Both the position numbers and the translations under genes were made by a program. From Candidatus Butyricimonas faecavium (lineage in GTDB: Bacteria; Bacteroidota; Bacteroidia; Bacteroidales; Marinifilaceae): a stretch of 64,000 bases of DNA. Shown here in pieces: positions 44,980 through 63,250 of this stretch. A model generated the notes under the pieces. It saw nothing but the letters and a program-made list of their open reading frames with translations, was not told where the DNA came from and did no database searches. The first letter of the stretch is position 1. Each line of letters begins with the position of its first letter. The stretch covers positions 62,001-126,000 of the forward strand of contig CALUKD010000007.1 of the NCBI GenBank assembly GCA_944321125.1. Direction: 5' to 3'.

Positions 44980-45045
44980 AAAAGTTGTCTTTTGCGTAAT
45001 CCTTTTATTCAAGTTATTTGTAATAGGGGAAATTTTACGAAAGAG

Positions 45046-46209
45046 ATGAAAAATCCATTTGAATTTGCAAAAGAGTTATTACAGTATAACCGGGGGGAAC
45101 TTTCCGATGTGAAGAAGGAAAGTGTGGAAGAGATGTTGTCTAAAGTGAAAAGATTAGATAGGCTAGCGGGAGAATTAAAGGATAAAAAACATGTTGAGAA
45201 TGAGTTACGTGTGATAGAAAGCTTCGATGTGGAGAAGGCTTTGGTACGGTTGAAAAAAAGACAACGTGGAAAGAAACGTTTGTTTTTACCTTGGGTAGCA
45301 GCAGCATCGGTTGTGGTAATTGTGGGTATTTCTGTATTTTTGTCGATGAACCGGGAAGTGGAGGTGGTGAATTTATCCATGGAGGAAAAAATAGAGCCAG
45401 GTAAAGCAATGGTTACATTGGAGATGGCTTCCGGGCTAAAGTATCGATTAGACACCTTGTCTTCAATAGTGCGTAATAATCGGGTAAATGTTGCTTTTGA
45501 TAATAATAGAGGGGTTCTGAAAGTAAAGGAACAAGATTCTACGGATCATCTATTGCAAGAAGTGGGATGTAATACGATAAACGTTCCGTATAGAGGAACT
45601 TATACCGTGGAATTATGTGATGGTACAAAAGTATACTTGAATTCAGGAACAAAGTTGGAGTTCCCCTCCCGGTTTGACGGGGACATGCGTAGCGTAAGTT
45701 TGAAAGGGGAAGCTTATTTTGAAGTTGCTCGGAATGAAAGTAAGCCATTTGTCGTAGAGGTGGATGAAATGAAAGTAAAAGTTCTGGGGACGGCTTTTAA
45801 CGTTAAGTCGTATGTTGATGAACCGGGTGTTTATACAACATTGGTTCAGGGAAGCGTCGCAATTCTTCGGGATGGGCAACCGGAGAAGAAAATTGAGCCG
45901 GGAGAGCAGGCTTATTATAATAAGGGTGTAGGGACGTTGAGTATTTCCCGAGTGGACGTGAACGAGTTTACGGCTTGGAAAGATGGTTTATTTTATTTTA
46001 AGGATATTGCTTTGGAAGAAATTTTGCGTATTGTGGCAAGATGGTATGATCTTGAAATATTTTACATGAATCAAGGAGTGAAGAGTGTGGTGTATAGTGG
46101 AAAAATGCCAATGTATTCTTCTGTGGAGAATGTGTTGCGAAAGTTTGAAATGTCTGGTGATGTACGTTTTGAATTAAAAGGTAGAACATTAACTGTTTTT
46201 GATAAATAA
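45046..46209 (+). CDS. FecR-family anti-sigma factor
   Basis: Inner-membrane anti-sigma/signal-transfer protein, 387 aa from ATG 45046 (MKNPFEFAKELLQYNRG); the longer frame from TTG 44992 is unlikely. Residues 1-80 are the cytoplasmic sigma-binding part, one transmembrane helix follows (LPWVAAASVVVIVGISVFL), then the FecR domain (YRGTYTVELCDGTKVYLNSGTKLEFPSRF, SLKGEAYFEVARNESKPFVVEV, VLGTAFNVKSY) and a C-terminal domain that meets the SusC STN domain. It is intact although its sigma partner is frameshifted. Confidence 0.92.
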   Translation: MKNPFEFAKELLQYNRGELSDVKKESVEEMLSKVKRLDRLAGELKDKKHVENELRVIESFDVEKALVRLKKRQRGKKRLFLPWVAAASVVVIVGISVFLSMNREVEVVNLSMEEKIEPGKAMVTLEMASGLKYRLDTLSSIVRNNRVNVAFDNNRGVLKVKEQDSTDHLLQEVGCNTINVPYRGTYTVELCDGTKVYLNSGTKLEFPSRFDGDMRSVSLKGEAYFEVARNESKPFVVEVDEMKVKVLGTAFNVKSYVDEPGVYTTLVQGSVAILRDGQPEKKIEPGEQAYYNKGVGTLSISRVDVNEFTAWKDGLFYFKDIALEEILRIVARWYDLEIFYMNQGVKSVVYSGKMPMYSSVENVLRKFEMSGDVRFELKGRTLTVFDK

Positions 46210-46261: not shown

Positions 46262-46296
46262 AGAATAAATGTTTAATTTAATTGAATTACAAATCT

Positions 46297-49200
46297 ATGA
46301 AAAAAGTTTGGGATTTGTTGTTAAATTTTTGGCAACATCGGAAATCTAAATTCTTTTTACGTATGAAAATCTCGATGATTTTATTATTGGTGGGGATTAT
46401 GCATCTTTCTGCTAGTACATTTTCACAGACGAAAGTGTCTTTGAATATGAAAGATGCGACTGTTCAGGAAATCTTTTCCAGTTTGGAGAAGATGACAAAC
46501 TACACGTTTCTTTACAAGTTGGATCTTGTTGACAAATGTGGTAGAATGGATGTAAATGCCACAGATAAGGATTTTAACCAATTGTTGGAAGATTTATTAA
46601 GGCCATTGGGATTGTCTTTTAAGATTGATGATAGAGTCGTGGTGATTACTGCTAGAGAAGATGAGGAAAAGAAAGATATGGTAATCATTAAAGGAGTAGT
46701 GAAAGATGAGAACGGACAATCGCTTCCTGGGGTAACAATTGTTTTGAAAGGTACAAGTGTGGGAGTTGCTTCTGATATGGAGGGTAAATTTACTTTAAGT
46801 GCTCCGAAACAAGAAAATCTGAAATTATTATTTTCTTTCGTTGGAATGAAGACTAAAGAAGTTGTTTGGAAGGGAGAGAAAATGTTAAATGTTATATTGG
46901 AAGAAGATTCTCAACAGATGGATGAGGTTGTTGTTACGGGGTACCAAACTGTTAATAGACGAGATATGGTGGGATCTTATACGACAGTGAGAGCGGAAGA
47001 TATTATTATGCCGGCCTATACTTCAATTGACCAGATGTTACAAGGGCAGGTTGCCGGAATGGTTGTGATGAATACGAGTTCGCGTGTCGGTACGAGTCCT
47101 AAAATTAAAATTCGGGGAACAACGACTATTTTAGGTAATCAATCTCCAATTTGGGTGGTTGATGGTATTATTCAGGAGGATCCGATAGAATTAGAGGCAT
47201 CCACATATATGACACAAGATTTGAAAACAATTATTGGTAGTCAGATATCGTGGTTGAATCCGATGGATATAGAAACAATTACAGTGTTGAAAGATGCTTC
47301 TGCAACAGCTATTTATGGTTCTAAGGCTTCTAATGGAGTAATTGTAATCACAACGAAAAAAGGTAAAGTGGATCGTTTGACAGTTAATTATACTGGGAAT
47401 GTATCAATAAATTCAAAACCGAATTATGGTCAATTCAATTATATGAATTCTCAGGAGAGGATTATCTTTTCCCAAGAGGCATTTAATGCCGGTGCTTTTT
47501 ATTTGGAAGAACCATTAATGCAACCTTATACTTATGAAGGGGCCATGCAAATGTTTTTGCAGGGAGAACTTAGTAGGGATGAGTTTAACGAACGAAAAAC
47601 GTATCTAGAATCAATAAATACAGATTGGTTTGATTTGTTGACCCAGTCCGCAGTAAGCCAGAATCATAATGTGAGTGTTTCCGGTGGATCTGAAAAAGTT
47701 ACGTATAATATCTCTGCTGGATACAGTAATTCGCTTGGACAGGAAATAGGAAATAGTAGTGAGAAATTGACAGGAAGAGTTGCTGTTGATGTGCGCTTGA
47801 GAGAAAATTTGCGAATTAGTGCAAATGTGAATGGAAATACAGGTATTAATAAAGCATTTGGAGAGGGAGTGAATCCCATGGGGTATGCAACAAGTACAAG
47901 TAGGGCTATACCTGCTTACGATGAGAATGGTGATCCATTATTTTATAGAGAAAGAGCGGGATATGTTTATAATGAAAATGTAACCTCTTTAGGATATAAT
48001 TTTGAAAATGAGAGAGATAATAGTGGGTCAAGGGTGGAGAATACATATTTTTTTTCTGCATTGAATTTTAGTTGGGATATAGTAGATTGGTTAAGATATG
48101 AATTTAGTGGCGGTTATACACGTAGCCAAACTAATAATGAATCTTGGGCTTTAGAGAAAACTTTTAAAATTGCAAGGGAATATAGAGGATATGATTATAA
48201 TGCGGTAGATCCGGGAAGTGCAGAATTTAAAGCAGCAATCATGCCTTTTGGAGGAGGATTGTTTACTTCCGATGCTTTGCAGAGTTCTTATAATATTCAG
48301 AATAAATTATTGATATCAAAGTCATTTAATGAAGATCACCGTCTTAACGTAATGTTAGGTATGGAGATACGTTCTTCTCGGGTGAAAAATAATTCAAATA
48401 CTGTGTATGGATATGCACCAGACCGGGGAGAAAAAATTATTAAACCGACTTATCCTGAAAATATTGTACCTATTACGGGTAATGTAAATGAAAACTGGGG
48501 AATTTTAGAGGGTTTATACCAAGGTCGGTGGAGTCGGAACAAAAAAACAGTTAATTATCTATCGTTTATTGATGTTATTGTGTATAAAGATGGATTTTAT
48601 TTATATATGTGATTTGTAGGTGATTATGTTTTAGAGAATATAAATAATATATCTAATTTACTACTATTTGATGGATCTTAATAAACGATCGTTTTTTGCA
48701 ACAATGGCGTATTCTTTAAAGAATCGTTATGTATTTAACTTTTCAATTCGTAATGATGTTTCAAATCGTTTTGGACAGGATGTTAACCATCGTATAGATC
48801 CGACTTATTCATTTGGATTGTCATGGAGGGTAATGGAAGAACCGTTTTTTACAAGGGTGACCTCATGGTTGAATGCCTTAAATTTACGTTTAACTTACGG
48901 AATTCAAGGAAATGCTCTTACCCGGGTCGGACCGGATTTAACTCTTATTCAAGGTTCTGTTGTAGATGTTTATAATCAATTTGCATCAATAATTGCATCT
49001 ATACCTAATCCAAATCTATCTTGGGAAAAAACACATACATTTGATTTTGGTGTTGATTTTGAGTTGTTTAAAATGTTTACAATGACATTTGATTATTATT
49101 TGAGAAGTTCTAATGCAGTTGTTTCTCAAGATTTAGCTTATGAGTATGGGATTCCAACAATGCAATTAAACGGAGGAAAGATTCAGAATAGTGGTGTAGA

Positions 49201-50032
49201 ATTTACAGTTAGTTTTACTCCTATACAGCGTAAAGATTGGGCTTTGAGCGTTTCTTTGAATTCTTCTAAGAATTGGAATGAGGCTAAAAGTCAGCAATAT
49301 GCAGCTAAAAGAGGAGAAATGTTAACCGGATCAAGTGATAAAATTTTGAAAGAAGGTTATCCGCTTACGGGTTTCTGGTCATATTCTTTTGCTGGATTGA
49401 GTCCGGAAGATGGAAGGCCTTTGTTTAATTATTTAGATGTTCCGGAAGATAAAAGGGATTCTAATATAGATCCGTCGACTTTTTTGGTATATTCTGGAGA
49501 AACAGAGCCGGCTTTCACTGGAGGGTTGAATTTGAGCTTACGTTATAAAAATTTGTCTTTATCTTCAAGTTTCGCCTTGTTGTTAGGTGCTAAAAAGCGT
49601 TTGCCATCTCCTTATGAACCATTTAATTATGGTGTTTATATACCTAAAGAAACGGATAATTTGAGTAAAGATTTGAATAAAAGGTGGAAAAAACCCGGAG
49701 ATGAGGAACACACAATTATACCGGGATTTGTAACATCGCAACAATTTTCACTTACCTTGCCGGATAATGGTACTGAGTACTGGATGGATGCTTGGGCAAA
49801 ATCGGATGCCATGGTGGTAGACGCTTCTTTCTTCAGATGTCGCCAACTGACATTGTCTTGGAATATGGGACAAGAGTTATGTAAAAAGATAGGAATTAAG
49901 AGCTTAGGTCTAAGTGCTAGTGTCGACAATGTATTTGTTATTGCAAATAAGCGTTTTAATGGTTTTGATCCTGAATTAGGTGATAGTGTACAACCTAAAA
50001 ACTATTCATTTGGAATAAATGTTGGATTTTAA
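46297..50032 (+). pseudogene. SusC/RagA-type TonB-dependent transporter with STN domain, interrupted
   Basis: Outer-membrane importer. Fragment 1 (46297-48612; ATG 46297, the upstream TTG is rejected) has a signal peptide, an STN signalling domain (residues 45-125), a carboxypeptidase-regulatory-like domain (GVVKDENGQSLPGVTIVLKG), TonB box/plug (MDEVVVTGYQ, SPIWVVDGIIQ) and the first barrel half, ending in a stop. Fragment 2 (48671-50032) is the second barrel half. Deleting 127 bp (48563-48689) joins them in frame as ...NYLSFFATMAYSLKNRY..., 1202 aa. Loss of function is expected unless fragments complement. Confidence 0.85.
48561..48689. mobile_element. 127-bp MITE-like insertion in susC
   Basis: A 125-bp element bounded by terminal inverted repeats CGTTTATT (48563-48570) and AATAAACG (48680-48687), flanked by AT at 48561-48562 and 48688-48689, a probable 2-bp target duplication. 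Including the flanks the inverted match is 10 bp. Removing 127 bp restores the frame and the SusC consensus. No transposase is encoded. It is very A/T rich, with stops in all frames. Confidence 0.7.
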
Positions 50033-50043
50033 AATGTAATAAG

Positions 50044-51603
50044 ATGAAATATTTTTTACTTGTTATTGTAACCGTGGGATTATTCTCTTCGTGTTCTGAT
50101 TTTTTGGAACCTCAATCTCAAAGTGAATATGTTCCTCAAGATGCCGTCTCGTTAAATGAGATGCTTTTGGGAGAAGCTTATCCTCAGGCAGGTTCTCCTG
50201 CAGCAATTATGGATATACTCTCTATTTTAGATGACGATATTTGTTGTACGGATACACTTGGAGGGGTTATCGGTATAAATGATGATCGGGATTTTATTGC
50301 TTTGAAAGCGGCATTTTCTTGGCAGCCGAATTTTTGGACTGTGATGAAAGAAAATTCTGATTTATATGAAAATTATTGGGAGACTTTTTATCAATTCATT
50401 TTAGGAGCTAATGCTGCTTTGGATTATATTGATGGGGTTTCAGGTACTGTCGAGGAAAAAAACTTAGTAAAAGCTCAGGCATATGCTTTACGTGCATTTT
50501 ACTATTTTCAACTGGTGAATCTTTTCGGAGAACCTTATAATTATAATAAAGATGCGTTGGGGGTGCCATTAAAATTAACCAGTGCAATGGAAAATAAAGA
50601 ATTGCCAAGGAACACGGTAAAAGAAGTATATGATCAGGTTTTAGAAGATTTGACCGAAGCTGAAAAAATGTATGAATCTTTACCGGAAAATATGCAATTC
50701 CGACGTGACTATAGAACGAATCTTCCTATGGTACAGTTATTAAGATCTAGGGTACTTTTATATATGGAAGATTGGAAAAATGCTGCTATTTATGCGCAAA
50801 AAGTGATTGATAATGAGAATTTTTCATTAATAGATTTGAAGTCTTTACCTGCAAAGACGGAACAACAGCCTTATTATAATTTTATTTCAATGGAAAGTTC
50901 TTCAGAATGTATATGGGTTTTTGGAAATATTGATAGTTATTTAAATCTTTTAGATATAAATTTAACAGTGTTGGAAGATCCCTCGAATCCATTAGGGGAA
51001 TCAAGATATTTTTATAACCAATTTAATGCATCTCCAGAGTTATTGGGGGCTTATGTGGAAGGTGATTTGAGAAAAGAGAATTATATTTTGAAAGGTCGAA
51101 ACAAGGAACAAATAGGTAATAATCAGGTAATTATTCATCCAGATGGTTATTATCCCTATGGAAAATTTGCTATAAGTTCAGAATATGCAGCTGTTGTTGG
51201 AAATGACTTTGCTTATGCTTTTCGTTTGTCAGAAGCTTATTTGAATCTGGCAGAAGCAGCAGCAAATGATAATGATCCGGAAACAGCGTTAAGTGCATTA
51301 AATACGTTACGTTCCTATCGATTTGAAGAAGGGGTTGAGGAAGTTTCGGGAATTACCGGGGATGCTTTGATTGAACGAATTCGTCTAGAACGTCGTTTGG
51401 AGTTGTGTTATGAGGGGCATCGGTGGTTTGATTTACGTCGTTATGGTATGCCTTCTTTTTCTAGGACTTGGAAAGTTGGGGGTGTTACAGTCCAAACTTA
51501 TCAGTTGCAGGAAAAAGATCCGTCTTATACATTACCTATTCCACAAGATGTATTGGATCGCAATAGAAATCTAGAGCAAAATAAGTTAGCTAATCCTAGG
51601 TAG
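50044..51603 (+). CDS. SusD/RagB-type surface lipoprotein
   Basis: Substrate-capturing lid of the SusC transporter, 519 aa, lipobox LFSSC (Cys17). SusD features: the N-terminal SDFLEPQSQSEYVPQDAVSLNEMLLGEAYP, a helical TPR-rich core with LVKAQAYALRAFYYFQLVNLFGEPY, and the C-terminal IRLERRLELCYEGHRWFDLRRYGMP signature. It follows susC after 11 nt. The intact lid beside a broken barrel suggests the damage is recent. In RagAB-like pairs the substrate is peptide, which would fit the protease-like genes downstream. Confidence 0.92.
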   Translation: MKYFLLVIVTVGLFSSCSDFLEPQSQSEYVPQDAVSLNEMLLGEAYPQAGSPAAIMDILSILDDDICCTDTLGGVIGINDDRDFIALKAAFSWQPNFWTVMKENSDLYENYWETFYQFILGANAALDYIDGVSGTVEEKNLVKAQAYALRAFYYFQLVNLFGEPYNYNKDALGVPLKLTSAMENKELPRNTVKEVYDQVLEDLTEAEKMYESLPENMQFRRDYRTNLPMVQLLRSRVLLYMEDWKNAAIYAQKVIDNENFSLIDLKSLPAKTEQQPYYNFISMESSSECIWVFGNIDSYLNLLDINLTVLEDPSNPLGESRYFYNQFNASPELLGAYVEGDLRKENYILKGRNKEQIGNNQVIIHPDGYYPYGKFAISSEYAAVVGNDFAYAFRLSEAYLNLAEAAANDNDPETALSALNTLRSYRFEEGVEEVSGITGDALIERIRLERRLELCYEGHRWFDLRRYGMPSFSRTWKVGGVTVQTYQLQEKDPSYTLPIPQDVLDRNRNLEQNKLANPR

Positions 51604-51614
51604 AATAAAAATTA

Positions 51615-52577
51615 ATGTATAAAATTATGAAGTGGAGAAATATATTTGTATTAATGATATTTGTAACAATCTTTTCTGCTTGTTACGATGAAGATAAGAT
51701 TATCCCTTTGGAATCGGATGATGAAATTTTAAGGTACGAATTCCCTCAGGGAGAAAATGCTTGGGATCAGGATATTGTTGAAATTAGTGAACAATTTGGT
51801 GTATATTTAATTTATAAAAATTTTAAAGAGAATGATTTTAATCGTTCTTGGACGGGATCCGGATTAGGAGGGACTCTTTATTATGGTTATGATTTAACTG
51901 ATGAACAAGCTGAGTTCTCGACTAATTTTATGAAAAATCATATTTTTGCTCATTTGAATAAGGCTATTGTTAATAAAGTGTTACCAATGTATTGGTATAT
52001 GGTTTATGATTATCATACTTCCACTGAATTTATACCGGGAATGGCCTTTAAAGTTGCTCAACGTTTTTATGATGAAGGATTAGATTTTTGGGGAATATGT
52101 TTATTTTATGGGGATCCTTGTCCGTTAACTGGAGAAACAATAGAAACTCCAGAGACTCCAGAAGAATTTAGGCTTCGCCGTTGTGCGACTTTGGGGGAAA
52201 TTTTCCAAGAGTCTTTTGACAAAGGTAATTTTGTAATACCGACAGGTTTTACTGATGGATTTGATTATAAGACGGAAGTTTTAAGTAATGATGCGGACAA
52301 ACTAGATGAGAATTATTATATAATGCGTGGATTTCCGGGAATAATGGATCCAGATTTTGACGGTTTTAGTCCTGTTTATAAAAATCCGACTCCTTTAAAT
52401 CAACATTTCATGGAATATATAAAAATTGCTATGCGTTATACGAAAGCTGAATATGAAGAAATGTGGCCTTCTGCAACTTATAGATTAATTCATGAGAAAC
52501 GGCAATTTGTGATTGATTATATGAAAAATACATATGGTGTTGATTTAGAAAAAATTGCGGAATTAATTGGAGAATAG
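51615..52577 (+). CDS. SusCD-associated exported lipoprotein, unknown
   Basis: A 320-aa lipoprotein; start at ATG 51615 or 51627, lipobox VTIFSAC. I do not assign a firm family. The position (third after susC, susD), the length, and the C-terminus (YMKNTYGVDLEKIAELIGE) resemble the substrate-import-associated zinc metallohydrolase lipoproteins of Bacteroidetes, but no HExxH motif is present, so if related it has lost its active site. A stretch DPDFDGFSPVYKNPTPLNQHFMEYIK near residue 255 is the kind seen in that group before its C-terminal helix. Confidence 0.6.
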   Translation: MYKIMKWRNIFVLMIFVTIFSACYDEDKIIPLESDDEILRYEFPQGENAWDQDIVEISEQFGVYLIYKNFKENDFNRSWTGSGLGGTLYYGYDLTDEQAEFSTNFMKNHIFAHLNKAIVNKVLPMYWYMVYDYHTSTEFIPGMAFKVAQRFYDEGLDFWGICLFYGDPCPLTGETIETPETPEEFRLRRCATLGEIFQESFDKGNFVIPTGFTDGFDYKTEVLSNDADKLDENYYIMRGFPGIMDPDFDGFSPVYKNPTPLNQHFMEYIKIAMRYTKAEYEEMWPSATYRLIHEKRQFVIDYMKNTYGVDLEKIAELIGE

Positions 52578-52642: not shown

Positions 52643-53653
52643 ATGAAGCATATGTTGAAATTGTATCTAATATCGATTTTATTTTTTGGAGGATATTGGG
52701 AACTTGGGGCTCAAATCGGAGTAAAAATATCCGGAAAAATCCGAGTATTGGAGCCGACAACAATGAAAGTTGAAACAATCACAGGTGAATTACTACTTTC
52801 TACAAAAATCGGGAAAGATGGTGTGTTTTCTGTTGGTCCTAAAGAAATAGAACCGGATGTTTATTTTATTTGTTTTGGAGAAACGAAGCAACCTATTTAT
52901 TTAACGAATAATCAGATAACAGTAAAGGGATTTTATAATTGTCGGAATGTGGAGAGTAGTTCTCTGGAATTTACTGGTATTGATACTTATTATGAGTTGT
53001 TAGAATGGTTACCAAAAGGGGAGTTTTCACGAGATAAGACAATTAATCCAGAGGTTGAAGGAAGGTTGCAGGGAAATATGTATAGTGCATTAGCTTATAT
53101 AGCCGATATGTCAACTTATGAGCCGAATAAATTTTTATTGGATTGTATGTCGGAGGAAGCTTTGAAGACAGCTTCTGGTAAGTGGTTGAAGCATCGGGTT
53201 GATAGTTTATACCACTATTCTATAGGGGCACCTGCGTATAATTTTACTTTTCAAGATTCTTATGGAAAGAAAGTAAGTTTGACAAATTTTAGGGGAAAAT
53301 TGGTATTAATAGATTTTTGCGCATCTTGGTGTGGACCATGTCGTAATGAAATGAAAAGTTTATTGCAAATATATAATGAGTTGAAAGGAGATGACTTGGA
53401 ATTTATCAGTATATCTTTGGATTCGAAAGAAGAGAACTGGAGGAAAATGTTGGAGGAAGAAAAACTACCTTGGGTTATGTTGTGGGATGAAGAAGGATTT
53501 GTAATTGGTAATAAGCCGAATAAAATTCAGCAGGCATATGGTTTTTATAGTATTCCTTTTATTGTTTTGATTGATAAGGAAGGACGTTTGTTGGCTAAAG
53601 ATTTACGGGGAGAACAAGTACGAGAAGAGATTCTGAAGGCTAGGGCTAATTAG
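52643..53653 (+). CDS. Exported TlpA-like thioredoxin with N-terminal beta domain (WCGPC)
   Basis: A 336-aa periplasmic protein. Start ATG 52643, signal peptide ending ...GGYWELGAQ. Residues 24-105 form a beta-rich domain resembling DUF4369 (KVETITGELLLSTKIGKDGVFSVGP), then a helical spacer, then a TlpA/ResA domain (VSLTNFRGKLVLIDFCASWCGPCRNEMKSL) with the WCGPC site near residue 230-234 and cis-Pro in FYSIPFIVLIDKEG. It presumably reduces or isomerises disulfides in imported substrate or partner proteins. Part of the SusCD-downstream string. Confidence 0.85.
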   Translation: MKHMLKLYLISILFFGGYWELGAQIGVKISGKIRVLEPTTMKVETITGELLLSTKIGKDGVFSVGPKEIEPDVYFICFGETKQPIYLTNNQITVKGFYNCRNVESSSLEFTGIDTYYELLEWLPKGEFSRDKTINPEVEGRLQGNMYSALAYIADMSTYEPNKFLLDCMSEEALKTASGKWLKHRVDSLYHYSIGAPAYNFTFQDSYGKKVSLTNFRGKLVLIDFCASWCGPCRNEMKSLLQIYNELKGDDLEFISISLDSKEENWRKMLEEEKLPWVMLWDEEGFVIGNKPNKIQQAYGFYSIPFIVLIDKEGRLLAKDLRGEQVREEILKARAN

Positions 53654-53748: not shown

Positions 53749-55449
53749 ATGAAAAAGTATTTTCTTTTATTGATGGCCAGTGTATGTATTAGTGTTGCAG
53801 AGGCCCAGTTAGTAAAACAGAATGATCAGGGACAGAAAAAACAATCTGACTTGGATTGGTATAATTGTTCTTTTGATAAAGATGGGGTGTATGGGGCGGA
53901 AATAAATAAAGCGTATGATTTTTTGAAAGGGAAAAAAATAAAAAAAAGACCGGTTGTTGCTTTGATTGGATCGGGAATGGATGTTGAGCATGAAGATCTG
54001 AAACAAGCGATTTGGGTGAATCCGAAAGAAAAGTCAGATGGAAAAGATAATGATAAAAACGGTTTGATTGATGATATAAACGGTTGGAATTTTTTAGGAG
54101 GAAAAGATGGACAAGTGATGGAAAGTACGATGCGGGAAGGTGACCGAGAATATTTGCGTTTGAAAGATAAATATGCTGATTATATTTTTGATGGTAAAAA
54201 TTATTACAAAGTTATTAATGGAAAATTGACTAAAGTTGCTGCACCAGAGAATATAGAAGAGTATAATTATTATCGAGATCAAGTGTTACCGGAATCTCAG
54301 ATGGCCGGGACTTATGGCGGTTGGATGCTTTCTTATGTGATAAAGGATTATGCAGAGAAATTCGATCAAATGATGAAAGAACGTTTTCCTGGGAAGAAGT
54401 TGACCCAAACAGAATTCGGTATTTGTTATGATCCGAAGGCTCCTCGTGATTCTTTGTCAGAAGTTGCATTTATGGTTTGCGTCATGGGGTTCAATATTTA
54501 TAAAACGAATGAATGGGAAACTGTTTATGCAGGAATTAAGAGTGGAACTCAAATCGAGCAAGCTAAAGCAGATTATGAAGCTAAAGTAAAACGATTTGGG
54601 GCTGACGGACGGAAAGAGATAGTTGGTGATAATTATTTGGATATAAATGATAATCATTATGGAAATAATGTGTTATTAACGGCTGATGCGGGTATTGGTA
54701 CGATGGAGGCGGGTGTTATTGCTGCTAAGAGGGAAAATGGATTAGGAGGTAACGGTATTATGGATCAGGCTGAAATCATGACTTTAAGAGTTGCTGCCGA
54801 AGGAGAACCTTATTTGAAAGATATTGCTCTGGCCATTCGTTATGCGGTTGATCATGGTGCAGATGTGATAATGTTGCCTGTTCAAAATACACTTTATCCT
54901 GAAAATCAAAAAATATGGATTAATGAAGCATTAAAATATGCAGAGGATAAAGGAGTATTCGTTGTAGCTCCTGCTTGGGAGGCTGCCCAAGATTTATCTG
55001 TGACAACTTACTATCCCAATCGTTGGATGACCGGGGAGAAAGAATTGACGAATTTAATGATCGTTTCTTCTTCAGATAAAAACGGTAATCCTTCGATGAA
55101 TTCTAATTATGGTGCTAAAGAGGTTGATTTGTATGCTCCAGGGATGAATATTTATTCTACATATACAGGAGATACATACCAGAATGGTACGGGACTTGGC
55201 TTGGCTGCTGCAACGACAGCTGGAGTTGCAGCTTTGATTAAAGCCTATTATCCTCATTTAACAGGTACTCAGATTCGGAATATTCTTTTGGAAACTGTTA
55301 CTTCTAGAAAAGATGTAGAAGTAGAGAAAGGGATTATCGTGGATGGAAAACAGACGCAGGATTTGTTTTTGTTTGGTGATTTGTGTCTTTCCGGTGGTAT
55401 TATAAATGCTTATCAAGCAGTGATAGCTGCAGATAAAATCACTAAATAA
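53749..55449 (+). CDS. Exported subtilisin-fold pseudoprotease (S8 family, triad lost)
   Basis: 566 aa, signal peptide MKKYFLLLMASVCISVAEAQ. The S8 fold of Bacteroidetes peptidases is clear (DVEHEDLKQAIWVNPKE, DNDKNGLIDDINGWNFLGG, ATTAGVAALIKAYYP). Each catalytic residue is replaced: Asp by Gly in LIGSGMDVEH (residue 74), His by Ile where HGTHVAG should be (IGTMEAG, about 317), the oxyanion Asn by Trp in APAWEAA (about 408), and Ser by Gly in the GTS-equivalent GLG (about 483). The frame is intact over 566 codons, so it is probably a functional non-enzyme (binding, chaperone or regulator) rather than a decaying gene. Confidence 0.85.
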   Translation: MKKYFLLLMASVCISVAEAQLVKQNDQGQKKQSDLDWYNCSFDKDGVYGAEINKAYDFLKGKKIKKRPVVALIGSGMDVEHEDLKQAIWVNPKEKSDGKDNDKNGLIDDINGWNFLGGKDGQVMESTMREGDREYLRLKDKYADYIFDGKNYYKVINGKLTKVAAPENIEEYNYYRDQVLPESQMAGTYGGWMLSYVIKDYAEKFDQMMKERFPGKKLTQTEFGICYDPKAPRDSLSEVAFMVCVMGFNIYKTNEWETVYAGIKSGTQIEQAKADYEAKVKRFGADGRKEIVGDNYLDINDNHYGNNVLLTADAGIGTMEAGVIAAKRENGLGGNGIMDQAEIMTLRVAAEGEPYLKDIALAIRYAVDHGADVIMLPVQNTLYPENQKIWINEALKYAEDKGVFVVAPAWEAAQDLSVTTYYPNRWMTGEKELTNLMIVSSSDKNGNPSMNSNYGAKEVDLYAPGMNIYSTYTGDTYQNGTGLGLAAATTAGVAALIKAYYPHLTGTQIRNILLETVTSRKDVEVEKGIIVDGKQTQDLFLFGDLCLSGGIINAYQAVIAADKITK

Positions 55450-55458
55450 ATATAGAGT

Positions 55459-56595
55459 ATGAAGATAAGATATATTCTCGGCTTGATATTATTTTTACTT
55501 GTTGCCCCGCTTTCGGCGCAACAAGTAAAAAGTGTAATTCCTTATCGAATGGTGGGAGGAAAAATGCTTGTGGACATGAATGTAAACGGTCAGGTGCGTT
55601 CATTTATATTTGACACAGGTGGACAGACGGCTTTAACGGGAGAGCTTTGTGAAGAGTTAAATATTGCGGTAGTGGATTCTGTGAATGTAACGGATGTAAA
55701 TGGTAAAGAAATAGGATTACCCAGAGTTGCCATTAATAGTTTATTAACCCCAGATGAACGGATTAACTTTTCGGGTGTGCCAGCAATGAAGTTAGCTACT
55801 CCTTCTCCCTTTGAATGTTTTCATGCTGATGGGTTGATAGGAAGTGATTTGTTTAAAAATTTGATTATTGAGATTGATAGTAAGACAAAAACAATAACAG
55901 TTTGTTCGGCGGAAAAAGCTTCAGTAGTTTCTTTACGTAAAATGCTTCCTTTTTCTGGGAAAGGTTTTATGCCAATTATAACTTTACAGGCTGGTATGGG
56001 AAATAATTTGGTTGTTTTATTTGATACAGGATGTCCCAGTTTTTTATCTTTAAAAGATACGGATTACGAAAACTTATTTTCTAGTGGAGCTTTTCAGGTA
56101 ATGAGTGAAGGCCTTGGAGGTGGATCAATAGGTGTGGGTGGGATGGCAGAGACTGGTATTTCATATCGAGTAAAATTCCCTCTTCTATCTATCGGTTCTA
56201 CAAAATTTAAACAGGTAACGACTGAAACTTTTACACCTCCTTATACATTATTAGGGGTGAAATTATTGGAATATGGTAAAGTTACGATTGATTATTCCCG
56301 TAGGCGTTGGTATTTCGAAGCTTATGAACAAGAGTTTGATCTTACAAGTAAACATTATAACGTGAATTTGCAGGTGAAAGATGGAGATTTGGTTATAGCG
56401 ACTGTATGGTCTGCCATGAAAGGTGTTGTAGAAGTTGGGGATAAGGTGGTGAAAATTAATGGTAAACCTACGAGTAAATATGATTTTTGTGAAAGTATTA
56501 TTACGGGAATACCAGAGTTGAAAGCTAAGAAAAAAACGAAATTGACTGTTCTCACGAAACAGGGAGAGAAAGTGATTATATACGAAAAAGAGTAG
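55459..56595 (+). CDS. Exported bilobal aspartic protease with PDZ domain (copy 1)
   Basis: 378 aa, signal peptide MKIRYILGLILFLLVAPLSAQ. Two retropepsin-like lobes: lobe 1 (about 22-155) with active-site FDTGGQTALTG and the psi-loop GLIGSDLF; lobe 2 (about 160-295) with FDTGCPSFLSL and LLGVKLLEYGKVTID. A C-terminal PDZ-like domain (about 300-378; GVVEVGDKVVKINGKPTSKYD) follows. Both DTG triads are complete, so it should be an active peptidase in the periplasm or at the surface. Starts 9 nt after the pseudo-subtilisin gene. Tandem duplicate of the next gene. Confidence 0.85.
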   Translation: MKIRYILGLILFLLVAPLSAQQVKSVIPYRMVGGKMLVDMNVNGQVRSFIFDTGGQTALTGELCEELNIAVVDSVNVTDVNGKEIGLPRVAINSLLTPDERINFSGVPAMKLATPSPFECFHADGLIGSDLFKNLIIEIDSKTKTITVCSAEKASVVSLRKMLPFSGKGFMPIITLQAGMGNNLVVLFDTGCPSFLSLKDTDYENLFSSGAFQVMSEGLGGGSIGVGGMAETGISYRVKFPLLSIGSTKFKQVTTETFTPPYTLLGVKLLEYGKVTIDYSRRRWYFEAYEQEFDLTSKHYNVNLQVKDGDLVIATVWSAMKGVVEVGDKVVKINGKPTSKYDFCESIITGIPELKAKKKTKLTVLTKQGEKVIIYEKE

Positions 56596-56598
56596 GAT

Positions 56599-57768
56599 AT
56601 GTTAAATATACAATTCAAAGTTTTTTTGTGTAGTATTTTCATGCTTTTTTTTGTACATGGATTTACTCAACAACAATCGGTTAAACGGGTTTGTGATACG
56701 ATTCATTATGAATTTATTCAAGGAAAAATTGTTATTCCGGTAGTTGTGAATGGGGTGAAGGTAAAATATATTGTGGATACGGGTGGCCAGACAGGGACTG
56801 ATTGGGAGTATGTGAAGAAAATGGGTGGAGTTGCTACGGGGGCGTCCAATTCAATATCTGATCATAATGATATTAAAGAACTTTATCAGATAGCAGAAGT
56901 ACAAAATGTACAGCTAAGTCCGAATTATACTTTAAGTAAGATGAAAACGATGGTTTTTCCTATTATCGGAGGATTTAGAAATATAGGAGCTGTTGGAATT
57001 TTAGGTGGAGATGCTTTTGCTCAATCTGTGATTACTTTTGATGCAAGGGAACAAATTATGGTTATAAATTATCCTTATCGTCCAGATCGTTTGAAAATTA
57101 CGGATGGTGTTAAAATGTTTCCGGGAACTACGCATCATTCTATTCTTAACGTAAATTTAGGTGGAATTGAGAAACAAGTGTTGTTTGATACAGGTGCTGG
57201 TGGATTTCTTTTGTTGAAGAGTAATGATTTTAAAGATATAGAAGCTGCAGGGAAGGGAGAGAAAACAGCACGTGGTTTTGGAATTAACGGTGTCGGGTTA
57301 GAAGGATTGAGTCATCCAGTGGAGATGAATAAAGTTAATGTGAAAGAAATGACTGTTTTGGGTAAAAAATTTACTAATGTCGGGAGTATTATTTCGGATA
57401 AGTCAACAACAATCGTAGGGGTTGATTTGCTTAATTATGGAAAAGTCGTTATTGATTATATGCGAAATCGATTTTATTTTTTCCCTTTTGATACTGAAAT
57501 TGTAGATATGGGAGGAGCACCTAAAACTTGGAATGTAAGTATTTTACCGGCCAATGAACGTTTTGAAATTACTACCGTGTGGGATACTATGAAAGATGTG
57601 GTAACTTTTGGAGATCAGGTGGTGGATATTAACGGTACGGATATAACAGGATTCCCGATGAGTCAGCCAGCTGTGGATAGTGTAATGAATGCTATAAAAG
57701 GTGACACTGCTTATATTGTTGTATTAAGGGACGGGAAAAAGAAAAAAATAGAAATTAGAAGAGAATAA
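56599..57768 (+). CDS. Exported bilobal aspartic protease with PDZ domain (copy 2)
   Basis: 389 aa, starting 3 nt after copy 1 with a signal peptide (FLCSIFMLFFVHGFTQ). Same layout: lobe 1 VDTGGQTGTDW with psi-loop GILGGDAF, lobe 2 FDTGAGGFLLL with IVGVDLLNYGKVVID, then a PDZ-like domain (VVTFGDQVVDINGTDITGFP). Both DTG motifs are intact. It has diverged strongly from copy 1 outside these motifs, suggesting different substrates or a paired role. No close family assignment beyond retropepsin-like plus PDZ. Confidence 0.85.
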   Translation: MLNIQFKVFLCSIFMLFFVHGFTQQQSVKRVCDTIHYEFIQGKIVIPVVVNGVKVKYIVDTGGQTGTDWEYVKKMGGVATGASNSISDHNDIKELYQIAEVQNVQLSPNYTLSKMKTMVFPIIGGFRNIGAVGILGGDAFAQSVITFDAREQIMVINYPYRPDRLKITDGVKMFPGTTHHSILNVNLGGIEKQVLFDTGAGGFLLLKSNDFKDIEAAGKGEKTARGFGINGVGLEGLSHPVEMNKVNVKEMTVLGKKFTNVGSIISDKSTTIVGVDLLNYGKVVIDYMRNRFYFFPFDTEIVDMGGAPKTWNVSILPANERFEITTVWDTMKDVVTFGDQVVDINGTDITGFPMSQPAVDSVMNAIKGDTAYIVVLRDGKKKKIEIRRE

Positions 57769-57778: not shown

Positions 57779-57799
57779 ATTTATGATTTGTAATTTATG
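57779..57799. repeat. Heptamer repeat supplying a start codon
   Basis: ATTTATG, ATTTGTA, ATTTATG in register. The ATG ending the third unit (57797-57799) is the initiation codon of the next gene. Confidence 0.55.
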
Positions 57800-59071
57800 A
57801 TTAAGAAGAGTTTGATAATACTTGGGTTGTGTTTGGTTGGTGTGATGACATGGGCCCAGTCGAAGAATACCTCGGTAGAAGTGAAAGATTACCGGGAGGT
57901 TGATGGTAAAATTATATTAGAGATGGTTGTGAATGGGGTGATTGCGGATTTTGCACTGGATTTAGCTGGTCATAATGCAATATTGCCAGAGTATGTGGAG
58001 AAGTTGAAGATTGATCCTAATGTGGCAGGAGATTTTCGTTATGATTCGTTTCAATATAAAAAAGTTCCGGTTGAGAAATCTGTAAAAATTGAAAGTATTT
58101 CTTTTGGAAATAGTGTGTTCGGGAATGAAGTTGCCGCATTTGTGTTAAAAGATGCATCTTATTTACGAAAATTAGGTGTGGCCGGAGTGATTGGTAGTTC
58201 ATTGTTTAATAATGTCGTACTAACGATTGATTCAAAAAGGAAAAAAATTACGATGAGCAACCCTTATCGTCCCTCTTATATGAAACTGGATCATCGTTCC
58301 AATATGGAGTTAATTACAGCTTCCGGGGTGGTTTGCCCCGTTGTATTGGATGGGGTAACTTATCCGTTATTATTAGATACGTGGAACGATGGAATGGTTA
58401 CTTTAAATACGGCAGATTTTGCTAAACTGAATGGAGAGGATGGAAAAGAAGTAAAAGTTTATGAAGGGTATACTGATACCGGAGTATCCGCAAGAAGTAA
58501 AATTGTTGGGGAATGTCGTTTTGTGAAAAGTGATTTCTCAAATATTGCCGTTGCTGAGAATGGAACGTTACCTCGTTCGATATTAGGAAACGGTGTTTTG
58601 AAGAAAGGTTTACTTTCCATTGATTATGGAAGGAGAAAAGTATATTTCCAGCCGTTTGATCTAACCGAGGTAAAAGATGAGATACATGGGGCGGATGATG
58701 TAAAAGTTGAAGCTGGTAAATTGAATCCGATAACCCGGGAATATTTTTTAGAACATATTTATGATTATCGGAAAGATAAGGAGTTTGTGTTTAAAGGAGA
58801 CAAACCGGTTGTAATTGATTTTTGGGCTACTTGGTGTGGACCTTGTATGCGTCTAATTCCTGAACTGGAAAAGATGGCAGAGAAATATAAAGATCAGGTA
58901 ATATTTTTGAAAGTAAATGCTGATAAGGAAAAAGAGTTGTGTGGAATGTTTAATATTGTCGCTTTACCGACTTTGTTTTTTATTCCGGTGGGAGGAAAGC
59001 CTATTATAGAAATGGGGGCTACTCCGGAAAAGTTTGTTGAAATAATAGAAAATCAGTTGTTAAAAAAATAA
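57797..59071 (+). CDS. Aspartic-protease-like protein with altered DTG motifs fused to a thioredoxin domain
   Basis: 424 aa, signal peptide MIKKSLIILGLCLVGVMTWAQ. Residues 25-295 align in layout with the two preceding bilobal proteases (psi-loops GVIGSSLF and ILGNGVLKKGLLSID are kept), but the catalytic triads read DLAGH and DTWND instead of DTG, so activity is doubtful although both Asp remain. In place of the PDZ domain is a thioredoxin domain (about 315-424): VVIDFWATWCGPCMRLIPELEKMA and cis-Pro ALPTLFF. The fusion physically couples a protease-like clamp to a disulfide reductase. Confidence 0.85.
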   Translation: MIKKSLIILGLCLVGVMTWAQSKNTSVEVKDYREVDGKIILEMVVNGVIADFALDLAGHNAILPEYVEKLKIDPNVAGDFRYDSFQYKKVPVEKSVKIESISFGNSVFGNEVAAFVLKDASYLRKLGVAGVIGSSLFNNVVLTIDSKRKKITMSNPYRPSYMKLDHRSNMELITASGVVCPVVLDGVTYPLLLDTWNDGMVTLNTADFAKLNGEDGKEVKVYEGYTDTGVSARSKIVGECRFVKSDFSNIAVAENGTLPRSILGNGVLKKGLLSIDYGRRKVYFQPFDLTEVKDEIHGADDVKVEAGKLNPITREYFLEHIYDYRKDKEFVFKGDKPVVIDFWATWCGPCMRLIPELEKMAEKYKDQVIFLKVNADKEKELCGMFNIVALPTLFFIPVGGKPIIEMGATPEKFVEIIENQLLKK

Positions 59072-59080: not shown

Positions 59081-60190
59081 ATGAAATTAACAGGGATTGT
59101 ATTCTTATTGTTTATATCTTTGAGTGGTATAGCACAACAGCCAGAGTCGTTGAAGGATAGTGTGATAAAAAAATGGGAGAATATACAACTTCCGGAAAAA
59201 GGAGCGGTAAGAACAATACTGGCTGAACGTGAGGAAATTGCTCGTTATTTAAAAATGAATGATGCACCTGCTGAAGTTTTTCAGGAAAATGGAGCTCAAG
59301 CTATTCATCGAATAGCGGATTTGTGTAAAAAAGTTGGAGAAGAGTTACAATTAAAACCTTCTGTTATCAAGAAAGTGCTAAAAGGAGTGGATTTATCGAC
59401 AAAAGAATTTCTTGCTTGTACGAATCTGGGGCTTGTTATTGAGGATTATTACGGTTTGAAGGCGGTTGCCGAAGGAGCTCCCGTGGGAGAGGCTTGGGGT
59501 AGTATGTGGTTTAATACTACGGTGGAGACGATAGGTAATGAATATGATTATTCAAGGTATCGTCAAATACTTGAATTGAATAATCCAGAATTGTCGCTAG
59601 CTTATTTATCTTGTTTGAAATCTGTTTTTCGGTATAATGGTTACACTAAAGGGTTAGACGAACTTCGACCATTATTTGAAAAAAATATGCCGGAAGGAGA
59701 ATTGAAAGATGAAATTAATAAGTTATACGAGAGTTATGCCCATTTGAAAGAGGGAAATGTAGCTCCGGCGTTTACGTTGAAAGATTTTAGGGGTAAAGAA
59801 CATTCTTTGGCTGATTACAAAGGAAAAGTTTTGGTGGTAGATGTATGGGCTACGTGGTGTGGAGGATGTATCGCTAAATTACCTAAATACATGGAAATGA
59901 GTGAAAAGTATAAAGATAGGGATGATATTGAATTTATAACTATTTCAATAGATGATAAAGGAGTTTATAATAGTTGGAAATATGCTTTACCGCGCTTGAA
60001 ACTAATGGGAATGACGAATTTATTAGCTTCTGAAGGAGAGTGTACTTTTCAAGAAGATTATAATATTACGGGGATACCTCGTTATTTTCTGATTGATAAA
60101 GAAGGGAAAATTGTTTCTGTTTATGCACCGACGCCTGGAAAGGATTTTGAAACGTTGATTAATAGAACACTGAAAAATAGTAATGATTGA
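59081..60190 (+). CDS. Exported TlpA-like thioredoxin with helical N-terminal domain (WCGGC)
   Basis: 369 aa, signal peptide MKLTGIVFLLFISLSGIAQ. Residues 25-225 are a helical domain without recognised homology (EREEIARYLKMND, ELNNPELSLAYLSCLKSVF), then a TlpA/AhpC-type domain (GNVAPAFTLKDFRGKEHSLADYKGKVLVVDVWATWCGGC) with site WCGGC near residue 260-264 and cis-Pro GIPRYFLIDKEG. Gly-Gly in the redox centre is unusual for reductases and may shift redox potential. Same layout as the last gene of the string. Confidence 0.83.
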   Translation: MKLTGIVFLLFISLSGIAQQPESLKDSVIKKWENIQLPEKGAVRTILAEREEIARYLKMNDAPAEVFQENGAQAIHRIADLCKKVGEELQLKPSVIKKVLKGVDLSTKEFLACTNLGLVIEDYYGLKAVAEGAPVGEAWGSMWFNTTVETIGNEYDYSRYRQILELNNPELSLAYLSCLKSVFRYNGYTKGLDELRPLFEKNMPEGELKDEINKLYESYAHLKEGNVAPAFTLKDFRGKEHSLADYKGKVLVVDVWATWCGGCIAKLPKYMEMSEKYKDRDDIEFITISIDDKGVYNSWKYALPRLKLMGMTNLLASEGECTFQEDYNITGIPRYFLIDKEGKIVSVYAPTPGKDFETLINRTLKNSND

Positions 60191-60205
60191 AAATAATGGT
60201 TAATT

Positions 60206-61036
60206 ATGAAAAGAGTTATATGGTTTGTACTTTTTTGTTCTATCATGATTATTCAATCTACTTATGCCCAAAATAAAGTAACGGAACAACAAAAGAGTGA
60301 ATATGCAAAGGGGAATCGAGATCGGGATTTTTTAAAAGAGTATATAGAAGCGTTGAAAGTTGATGGTCAGACAGAGATTTTGAATGATGTGATTGATGAA
60401 TATTTAATGACATTACCTTTTAATGAACGTTATGTGGGGGAAAATTTGTCTGATTTTATGGAGTATGTCACTCGTGTGGATGCGCGGACATTTATTGATA
60501 TTATTAAGAATTGGGAAAAACTTTCGTTAAGTCAAGAACAGGCAGATCAGGTTGCGGTAAAAGTGGATAACATGTGTAAGATGGATTTATTCAACGTGAT
60601 GATGGAAAAGGAAGAGGAAAATGGGAAAAGACCTGCTAAAGATTATACTGATTTGCAAACAATATTGAAAAAATCTAGTATTCCGATATCCGATATGCGG
60701 CGCTATATGATTGATATGTGGCAATGTTGGGGGAAAAATGATGTTTCTGGGATGATCCAAGTACTTGGAAAAATGGTTGGGGATTCGGATTCTTCTCAAG
60801 AATATGAAAAAAATGGAAATTCTCTTAGTTTGGATACAATGTTTGAAGGTGTGGTCATAGGGAATATGATGAATTATGTACTTGAAGAATGTAATCTTGA
60901 TCAATGTAGCCAAATACTTGAGATTATGGATCATGCTATAGAAAAAAACGGTCGTACAGGTCGAATGGAAATGTTTGCTAGAATGAGAGATAATTTTGAG
61001 GGAAAAAAGATGATGATGGAAATGGGAGAGGAGTGA
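60206..61036 (+). CDS. Exported helical protein, unknown function
   Basis: 276 aa with a signal peptide (MKRVIWFVLFCSIMIIQSTYAQ). I do not recognise a family. The remainder is charged and almost all helical (DFLKEYIEALKVDGQTEILNDVIDEYLM, MMNYVLEECNLDQCSQILEIMDHAIEKNGR), with scattered Cys and many Met near the C-terminus (GKKMMMEMGEE). It resembles in style the helical N-terminal domains of the TlpA-like neighbours without the thioredoxin half. Position in the string suggests a partner or adaptor; there is no evidence of catalysis. Confidence 0.7.
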   Translation: MKRVIWFVLFCSIMIIQSTYAQNKVTEQQKSEYAKGNRDRDFLKEYIEALKVDGQTEILNDVIDEYLMTLPFNERYVGENLSDFMEYVTRVDARTFIDIIKNWEKLSLSQEQADQVAVKVDNMCKMDLFNVMMEKEEENGKRPAKDYTDLQTILKKSSIPISDMRRYMIDMWQCWGKNDVSGMIQVLGKMVGDSDSSQEYEKNGNSLSLDTMFEGVVIGNMMNYVLEECNLDQCSQILEIMDHAIEKNGRTGRMEMFARMRDNFEGKKMMMEMGEE

Positions 61037-61074
61037 TTGGGAAGTAAGAATGATAATAAGCGATAAGTTGAGAT

Positions 61075-62163
61075 ATGAAGTTATTTATTGTTTTTTTAGT
61101 AATTTGTTGTGTTGGTTGTACACAATCATCACGTTATCAGTTTTGTTTAAAAGGAAAAATTGAGGGGGTGAAGTACGGAAAGGCATTCTTGATTCTCCCG
61201 GGTGATACTTCGAAGATTTTGTACACTACTGATTTGGACAAGGGAAAATTTGAAATGAGAGGTGAATTAGATGAACCGAGACAGGTCATATTAAAAGTAA
61301 ACCGACGACAGACTTATTTCTTTATGGATGGAGAGGAAATGGAAATTTCTTGTCCCTATATTTCTTTAAGTGATAAATATTTGAAAGGTGCTCCGGCAAA
61401 TGATTTGTCTGCAGTTTATAATCAACTTGTTCAAGAAGGTTATTATAAAGAATTTAATACGTTATTGGGGGAATATAAAGAATTATTGGATGCTGGCGAT
61501 CAAAAAGGGGCAGATGAGAAATTGACTCAAGCTTTGAAGATGGAAGATAAGCGTTTTGAGTTAACTCAAGAATTCGTGAGACAACATCCGGATAATATCT
61601 TTTCTGCCTATATATCTGATGTCGTGAAAGGGGAAAGTTATGAAAAAGGAAAAGCTTTATATGATTTACTTACCCCGAAAATTCAAAATTCTTTTTATGG
61701 GCAATTATTGAAACAAAATACGGATTCTCTAGCGATATCGGCGTTGGGTGTACCCTGTCCTAATTTTGTTGCAACAGATGAGTCTGGTAATAAAATTTCA
61801 ATGGATGCACAGAAAGGAGGGATTATGGTACTTGATTTCTGGGCATCTTGGTGTGGCCCTTGTCGACAGGAGATGAAAAATTTGCGGGAACAATATGCAG
61901 AGTTTAAGGATAAAGGTGTACGATTTATGAGCATATCTTTAGACGATTCGGAGGAAAAGTGGAAAAAAGCTTGTGAAGAAGAACAAATACCTTGGATCAG
62001 TGTGAGAGATGATAATGGTTGGTCTAAATCTGAGATTCGTAAATTATTCGGAATACAGGCTATCCCATTTATTGTATTGTTAGATAAGGATGGGAATATT
62101 GTTGCCAAGAATATTCGCCGGAATAGTTTGCGTGAAAAGATTTTGGAACTGTTACAAAAATAG
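61075..62163 (+). CDS. TlpA-like thioredoxin lipoprotein with DUF4369-type domain (WCGPC)
   Basis: 362 aa lipoprotein (lipobox VICCVGC, Cys15), hence anchored in a membrane unlike its soluble relatives. The N-terminal beta domain (residues 20-110, FCLKGKIEGVKYGKAFLILPGD) matches the DUF4369 style, a helical spacer follows, then the TlpA domain: GIMVLDFWASWCGPCRQEMKNLREQY (WCGPC near residue 260) and cis-Pro QAIPFIVLLDKDG. It is close in design to the 52643 gene. Downstream neighbour begins 7 nt later. Confidence 0.86.
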   Translation: MKLFIVFLVICCVGCTQSSRYQFCLKGKIEGVKYGKAFLILPGDTSKILYTTDLDKGKFEMRGELDEPRQVILKVNRRQTYFFMDGEEMEISCPYISLSDKYLKGAPANDLSAVYNQLVQEGYYKEFNTLLGEYKELLDAGDQKGADEKLTQALKMEDKRFELTQEFVRQHPDNIFSAYISDVVKGESYEKGKALYDLLTPKIQNSFYGQLLKQNTDSLAISALGVPCPNFVATDESGNKISMDAQKGGIMVLDFWASWCGPCRQEMKNLREQYAEFKDKGVRFMSISLDDSEEKWKKACEEEQIPWISVRDDNGWSKSEIRKLFGIQAIPFIVLLDKDGNIVAKNIRRNSLREKILELLQK

Positions 62164-62170
62164 GATCGTT

Positions 62171-63250
62171 ATGAAAGTGGTAAATGTTATTTGGATGTGT
62201 GTTGTAATTTGTTTTGGAGGAGTGATTTCTTGTTTTGCTCAACAGGGTACAAAGAATCAAGTTTTATTGGAACGGATTGCAAGGATATATGCTATTATAC
62301 CTCAGGATTTGAAGGCTGACGAGTTGTTGGAAAAAATTGATGAGGTAGACAAACAGGTAAATTTGTTAATTGATTCTATCTCCAATCAAGAGTTGAAGAG
62401 TAAGGCTCAATTGCTTCGTTTTAATGGATTATTGTGGAGTATGAAACAGACGGACGAGGTGATAAGAAAGGATTTGGAGAAACGGATTCATGGTTTGGAT
62501 TTGGATTCCCCGGAATTAGAATTACTAAGTGACGTTGAGGTTACTAATTTGTTGAATGGCTATTTCCAAGTGTTTATGCCAGATGCCTCTGCTGTCGAAC
62601 GGGCTACTTACGTGTTGTATAATATAGGAAGTGAAAAAGTCAGAAACTCTTATGTTCCTTTTGTTTTAATTTCTGCGTTGAAAAAGAATGGATATACTAG
62701 TGACGTGGAAGGATTAATGGAAGACATTGAACTTTGTTCAAAGACGGAAGCAACAATACAAAAAGCAAAAGAATTAAAAAATAGCTATTATCCGGTTCGG
62801 GAGGGTGCTGTAGCTCCGGACTTTGAAATGGAAGATGAGTATGGTAATCGGGTAAAATTATCGGATTTTAGGGGTAAAATTGTTTTTATTGATGTTTGGG
62901 CAACTTGGTGTGATGGTTGTGTGAAAGGGCTTCCGGCGTTTATTGCTTTAAGAGATCAATATAAGGATCGTGATGATATTGTATTTTTAACAATTTCAGA
63001 TGATGGAATTGAGTCAAAATCTCATTGGCTTAAATTTTTGAAAGAAAGAAAATATTCCGGTAAGATTCCTCATTTGATAGCTAACAATGCGAAGGATCAT
63101 TTTGTAAAAGATTATTGTATAACCGGAATTCCCCGGTATATATTGGTCAATAGAGAAGGAAAAATTGTAAATGCATGGCATATAGCTGCTAATCATGAGT
63201 TCTTCTCTTGGATGTTTGAGATGGAGTTGAAAGGTTTAGCGGGAGAATAA
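62171..63250 (+). CDS. Exported TlpA-like thioredoxin with helical N-terminal domain (WCDGC)
   Basis: 359 aa from ATG 62171 (the frame continues upstream to 62090 within the previous gene, rejected because the signal peptide MKVVNVIWMCVVICFGGVISCFAQ begins here). Residues 28-220 are helical. The TlpA domain has AVAPDFEMEDEYGNRVKLSDFRGKIVFIDVWATWCDGC, site WCDGC near residue 257-261, and cis-Pro GIPRYILVNREGKIV. The last gene of the string; a terminator follows. Pairs in layout with the 59081 gene. Confidence 0.84.
   Translation: MKVVNVIWMCVVICFGGVISCFAQQGTKNQVLLERIARIYAIIPQDLKADELLEKIDEVDKQVNLLIDSISNQELKSKAQLLRFNGLLWSMKQTDEVIRKDLEKRIHGLDLDSPELELLSDVEVTNLLNGYFQVFMPDASAVERATYVLYNIGSEKVRNSYVPFVLISALKKNGYTSDVEGLMEDIELCSKTEATIQKAKELKNSYYPVREGAVAPDFEMEDEYGNRVKLSDFRGKIVFIDVWATWCDGCVKGLPAFIALRDQYKDRDDIVFLTISDDGIESKSHWLKFLKERKYSGKIPHLIANNAKDHFVKDYCITGIPRYILVNREGKIVNAWHIAANHEFFSWMFEMELKGLAGE

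Follow-up and report, generated by a model that had tools for sequence, protein, structure and literature searches.

Degenerate aspartic-protease lobes fused to thioredoxin in a SusCD-linked operon of Butyricimonas and related genera

To our knowledge, the handling of disulfide-bonded dietary and host proteins by gut Bacteroidota is little understood compared with that of glycans. Among the pseudo-aspartic proteases, the plant gamma-conglutin, 7S globulin and TAXI-type proteins are inactive and have binding or inhibitor roles. Peptide uptake systems of the SusCD/RagAB kind (BT_2263/2264 and RagAB; 8ypt, 5fq6, 6sli) are TonB-dependent, consist of SusC and SusD and are accompanied by an ECF sigma/FecR pair. 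The C. difficile pseudo-subtilases CspC and CspA have been described as forming a heterodimer that takes part in signalling (PMC6636752, PMC12880746). Among open-access papers, no published description of the fusion or of the pseudo-protease operon presented below was found.

The window analysed in this study is a stretch of 64,000 nucleotides from Candidatus Butyricimonas faecavium. A single open reading frame of 424 residues occupies exactly positions 57797-59071 of its forward strand and encodes the fusion protein referred to here as FUS. Reverse-strand coding at this position was rejected, the opposite frame being full of stops. The features of FUS and of the surrounding genes are listed below with their positions in the window.

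44446..44979, + strand: ECF-type sigma factor
44992..46209, + strand: FecR anti-sigma factor
46282..50032, + strand: SusC/RagA TonB-dependent receptor, interrupted in the window genome (Pfam)
50044..51603, + strand: SusD-like lipoprotein (PF07980, PF14322; 8ypt_A, E=7e-40)
51615..52577, + strand: Mx1-like lipoprotein without HExxH, a putative pseudo-metallopeptidase (weak PF15890; Foldseek, 4l7a)
52643..53653, + strand: TlpA1, exported TlpA/ResA-like thiol reductase with CGPC
53749..55449, + strand: pseudo-subtilase of S8 fold, with Asp replaced by Gly, His lost and Ser replaced by Gly (PF00082, E=3.7e-26)
55459..56595, + strand: AspA, intact-motif aspartic protease with two DTG motifs and a weak PDZ match (PF13650)
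56599..57768, + strand: AspB, intact-motif aspartic protease with two DTG motifs and a weak PDZ match (PF13650)
57797..59071, + strand: FUS, 424 residues, signal peptide, degenerate aspartic-protease lobes and thioredoxin (ORF, Pfam, BLASTP, AlphaFold, Foldseek)
57860..58696, + strand: two-lobed pepsin/retropepsin-like pseudo-protease region of FUS, residues 22-300 (BLASTP, PF13650, Foldseek)
57959..57970, + strand: degenerate motif of lobe 1, D55-L-A-G in place of D-T-G-G (26-copy comparison)
58376..58384, + strand: degenerate motif of lobe 2, D194-T-W in place of D-T-G (26-copy comparison)
58703..59068, + strand: thioredoxin domain of FUS, residues 303-424 (PF00085, PDB relatives)
58832..58846, + strand: WCGPC redox active site (20 aligned rows)
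59081..63250, + strand: three further TlpA-like thioredoxins (59081, 61075 and 62090) and a 276-residue protein (60206)

All motifs that the preliminary description had read in FUS are present, with DLAGH at residue 55, DTWND at residue 194 and WCGPC at residues 346-350. When both halves were subjected to domain search, the thioredoxin was recognized by PF00085 (E=8.9e-24), and the approximately 280 residues between the signal peptide and the thioredoxin, which have no Pfam recognition in the window copy, were matched directly by PF13650 (Asp_protease_2) in 10 of 20 homologues (best E=4.5e-8). BLASTP aligned the lobes with AspA and AspB over about 300-380 residues (E=3e-21 and 1e-23, respectively). 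An AlphaFold model of FUS, built with 20 natural homologues (mean pLDDT 87, pTM 0.78), was compared with the PDB by Foldseek, and a putative endopeptidase of B. fragilis was matched (9iy9, E=4.5e-12); BACE1, aspergillopepsin and chymosin (E about 1e-9 to 1e-8), histo-aspartic protease, gamma-conglutin (4pph) and TrxP were also matched. The TM-scores were moderate (0.44 at maximum, 0.3-0.4 against the pepsins), as is expected because a multi-domain query with flexible lobes was compared with one domain. A sequence search of the PDB with a profile of the pseudo-lobes returned no significant match. The N-terminal part of FUS is a two-lobed member of the aspartic-protease superfamily by descent. 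An unrelated beta fold for residues 25-295, a doubt that the preliminary description itself had raised, was rejected on the BLASTP hits to the neighbours, the PF13650 matches of the homologues and the Foldseek matches.

With the plant pseudo-aspartic proteases FUS shares the aspartic-protease fold; these proteins are of plant origin and have neither a thioredoxin nor an operon. With the Asp_protease_2 proteins carrying PDZ, represented here by AspA and AspB, it shares export and two homologous lobes (25-29% similarity over about 300+ residues), but it lacks the Gly of D-T-G in both lobes and has a thioredoxin where PDZ would be. The two DTG motifs ascribed earlier to each of AspA and AspB were confirmed, whereas their PDZ-like end turned out to be a weak match (PDZ_2, E=0.0014; PDZ_6, E=0.019; both short of the Pfam cut-off).

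Comparison of the 26 full-length FUS copies identified in this study revealed that every copy retains the catalytic Asp in both lobes and has lost the Gly of D-T-G from both, none of them (0/26) having D-[TS]-G in both lobes. In contrast, all full-length copies of AspA and AspB retain D[TS]G twice. The lobe 1 motif is DL[AST]G or DING, except for DSRG in Pedobacter; that of lobe 2 is D[TS]W, with Trp for Gly, in 25 of the copies and DFY in the Pedobacter one. D55, D194 and W196 are invariant across 20 aligned rows, and both lobes largely preserve their hydrophobic-hydrophobic-Gly element. Because the Gly has gone from both motifs throughout, the lobes are probably inactive as peptidases; this is a prediction, since both aspartates persist in all copies and residual or altered activity would be compatible with them. 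It is the Thr/Gly context that has been lost, and the persistence of the catalytic aspartates themselves had not been mentioned in the preliminary description. Those aspartates and the retained hydrophobic-hydrophobic-Gly elements would fit an aspartic peptidase that is active through an unusual D-L-A / D-T-W site and employs both of them. Such an enzyme appears very improbable, considering the Gly missing from both motifs in all copies, the Thr missing from lobe 1, the bulky Trp in lobe 2, the intact paralogues alongside that keep D[TS]G without exception, and the S8 and Mx1 neighbours, whose own lack of catalytic residues fits a general pseudo-enzyme pattern.

The 26 full-length copies were distributed among 15 genomes, and two fragments were also found. 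The fusion of protease lobes to thioredoxin, noticed at the outset in one stretch of DNA, is therefore genuine and recurrent, and it is under purifying selection. A search of 60 relatives detected full-length FUS in all sampled Butyricimonas and in some neighbouring genera, and the family search placed it in 10 of 59 genomes, among them those of all six Butyricimonas species covered. Scanning 84,980 species genomes with two peptide patterns, which gives a lower bound, added three Bacteroides, one Bacteroidales MAG and one Pedobacter. FUS was not found in the class sample of 394 other genomes (E<=1e-20) or in the phylum sample of 394 other genomes (E<=1e-15). The 26 copies are monophyletic with a support of 0.951 (FastTree, midpoint-rooted). 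The lobes had a dN/dS ratio of 0.04-0.10 and the entire protein one of 0.04-0.13, the latter as low as in AspA and AspB; dS was saturated in the wider pairs, and the close pairs yielded 0.10-0.13. FUS is a real and old family. Chance, mis-assembly or a single-genome artefact was rejected as its origin by the number of copies and genomes, and a decaying pseudogene by the dN/dS values and the intact reading frames. The two fragments, one with lobe 2 and thioredoxin only (L050:8489-9184, G018:C1) and the other with thioredoxin only (G003:C1:2505659-2505925), are apparently decayed copies.

Between orthologues, FUS is most strongly conserved in its thioredoxin half (non-synonymous difference 0.027-0.069, compared with 0.078-0.205 for the lobes), as might be expected if the thioredoxin alone mattered and the lobes were baggage or a passive tether, left by an accidental fusion that became fixed in one ancestor. 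We consider this explanation improbable: the lobes are under strong purifying selection, D55, D194 and W196 do not vary in the aligned rows and, besides the fragments, neither stand-alone descendants of the pseudo-lobes nor secondary losses of the lobes were seen in the relatives searched.

The thioredoxin half belongs with the TrxP-like thioredoxins in fold, in the CxxC of WCGPC and in the cis-Pro, its closest solved relatives being 2l5l and B. fragilis TrxP (3hxs, 3hyp) at about 36-43% identity. Trp346, Cys347, Cys350 and Pro391, the cis-Pro after the active-site sheet, are invariant in 20 of 20 rows; a few copies have an altered motif such as WCKPC or WCAPC, with Trp and both Cys kept. Compared with TrxP and 2l5l, which were solved as stand-alone proteins, the thioredoxin of FUS is fused to pseudo-protease lobes, and relative to TrxP it carries C382 as a third Cys, which does not vary among the 20 rows aligned. 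The WCGPC motif suggests that this half reduces disulfides, and the signal peptide, with no consistent lipobox, points to a periplasmic location of FUS.

The genes around FUS form a SusCD uptake operon, with a TonB-dependent receptor, a SusD lipoprotein and an ECF sigma/FecR pair, and the recurring order is ECF sigma, FecR, SusC, SusD, Mx1-like lipoprotein, TlpA, S8, AspA (followed in some cases by AspB) and FUS. The portion from SusC through SusD, Mx1, TlpA, S8 and Asp to FUS is kept in most FUS loci, Bacteroides included, and the Pedobacter locus has the same genes in a different order. The genes at 59081..63250 are conserved downstream of FUS in the four closest loci. The 276-residue protein among them (60206-61036), which has no significant Pfam match, lies between TlpB and TlpC in these four loci and also occurs beside S8 and Asp genes in sister operons. 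A few FUS copies (L031, L046) have no adjacent intact aspartic protease, so coupling to AspA/AspB is not obligatory. In L031:785-3865, the second FUS copy of its genome, FUS is followed by a 479-residue protein without Pfam match and then by a subtilase with intact triad.

In comparison with the known SusCD/RagAB systems, the accessory genes of this locus are pseudo-proteases, aspartic proteases and thioredoxins and not glycoside hydrolases, and this accessory gene content suggests a peptide or protein as the substrate. Solved relatives of its SusC include RagA and BT_2264, which we take to be peptide importers. In the window, about 104 AT-rich bases that contain stops break the SusC frame at about 48586-48688; a tblastn match of a related SusC stops at 48585 and restarts at 48689, and a 21-nt imperfect direct repeat (48551-48571 and 48678-48698) flanks the interruption. 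A sequence 70% identical to the insert was found in two related genomes, at a distance of roughly 13-15 kb from the FUS copies there. In this strain the locus may be impaired, or it may depend on a different transporter.

The S8 neighbour of FUS has the subtilase fold, and its catalytic Asp, His and Ser are absent in 19 of 19 copies. Six further copies all lack Asp and His, with the Ser position kept in L058 alone, so that Asp and His are lost in 25/25 overall. The strong class of pseudo-S8 (>700 bits) and full-length FUS coincide completely among the 59 family genomes, both occurring in the same 10 and in no others. In 25 of the 26 loci, the pseudo-subtilase either neighbours FUS or is fused with it. 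The fused case, a single observation on one MAG contig, is an Odoribacteraceae sequence (L058:1120-4020, same contig as G459) in which pseudo-S8 and FUS share one frame of 966 residues; it is regarded as a genuine fusion and not a lost stop, since the two parts are joined by a short Pro-rich linker and the internal FUS signal peptide is gone. At loci without FUS, several S8 relatives have an intact triad (L111, L120, L127, L130) or are half-degenerate (L128/L129). In sister operons without FUS, TlpA genes and an aspartic protease of the PDZ type likewise accompany an S8 whose triad is intact (L132:2079-3725) or half-degenerate (L131:7264-8892), and these two operons possibly represent an earlier state of the FUS system.

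The lipoprotein at 51615-52577 contains HExxH in none of 16 homologues. Its AF2 model had chains B and A of 4l7a as top Foldseek matches (E=1.8e-4 and 2.1e-4, TM 0.42-0.51) and PF15890 was matched weakly by 5 of the 16 homologues, which lends moderate support to an Mx1 fold. The Mx1 relatives L097 and L098, which come from one genome and pass the Pfam cut-off, also have no HExxH, and the zinc site may thus have been lost widely in this group. Judged by the loss of catalytic motifs, FUS is not a lone odd protein but one of a set of predicted pseudo-proteases that also includes the degenerate S8 and the Mx1 lipoprotein, whose degeneration had escaped the preliminary description.

The close pairing of FUS with the pseudo-subtilase, including the direct fusion, bears on the main rival explanation, according to which FUS serves a regulatory or structural purpose, docking through its dead lobes to the pseudo-subtilase and/or to AspA/AspB, and its thioredoxin keeps a partner cysteine reduced or isomerises the partners. 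Conserved cysteines in the possible partners (S8 Cys546 in 19/19 and Cys40 in 17/19; AspA Cys120 and Cys344 in 16/16) are in line with such a role. A precedent is offered by CspC and CspA (PMC6636752, PMC12880746), which resemble the pseudo-subtilase next to FUS in subtilase fold, lost catalytic residues and solubility; they differ in phylum, operon and presumably function, and the likeness is limited to the pseudo-enzyme state. The docking role would leave unexplained the one to four extra TlpA-type reductases of the operons, and we judge it somewhat unlikely.

That a single operon with many thiol reductases contains pseudo-enzymes of the metallo, serine and aspartic classes might also be explained if the three were decoys capturing protease inhibitors, which are proteinaceous and often disulfide-rich, with the reductases opening the inhibitors and the live aspartic proteases staying active. 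This idea derives purely from operon composition, and degenerate active sites have often lost inhibitor binding as well; its probability seems very slight.

A second fusion with the opposite order was identified in three Butyricimonas genomes (G001, G003 and G004), consisting of Trx, a long helical middle part, Asp lobes and a PDZ-like end. The two copies that were read (L135:5951-8329 and L137:5006-7357) have 783-792 residues, lobe 1 reads DTCAG, and the N-terminal half also occurs as a stand-alone protein in other genomes. This differently ordered protein shows that the coupling of thioredoxin to aspartic-protease lobes has evolved at least twice.

Our preferred reading, to which we assign a probability of roughly 0.45, is that FUS is an exported non-catalytic scaffold with a TrxP-type reductase in a SusCD-linked operon for periplasmic digestion of proteins or peptides. 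The domain make-up, the motif loss, the purifying selection, the conserved operon and the pairing with the pseudo-subtilase form its observed basis, and the interrupted SusC of the window locus, the retained aspartates and the FUS copies that have no intact aspartic protease beside them count against it. Under the scaffold reading, the SusC/SusD transporter would import the substrate and the ECF sigma/FecR pair would sense this uptake; the Mx1-like pseudo-metallopeptidase, the pseudo-subtilase and FUS would either catch the polypeptide as it arrives or keep the complex assembled; the disulfides of the polypeptide would be reduced by the FUS thioredoxin and by TlpA-type proteins; and AspA and AspB would cleave it. 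The FUS lobes and the pseudo-subtilase may accordingly bind the polypeptide or each other, and the holding of substrate by the lobes with reduction-coupled unfolding, as first proposed for this gene, is a conjecture from sequence. The Trp that replaces Gly in lobe 2 could occupy some of the groove, in which case it would oppose substrate binding there.

A bolder version of the scaffold reading, which we think unlikely, is that disulfide-bonded proteins are trapped in the periplasm by a largely non-catalytic complex of metallo-, serine- and aspartic-type pseudo-proteases, which passes them in reduced form to the aspartic-protease pair, as an unprecedented machine for uptake-linked unfolding and digestion. 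In either version, the FUS operon, with purifying selection acting on probably dead proteases of three kinds beside two intact ones and with one of the three attached to a disulfide reductase, would represent a novel coupling of reduction, capture and cleavage, and it would be a clear test case for the function of pseudo-proteases.
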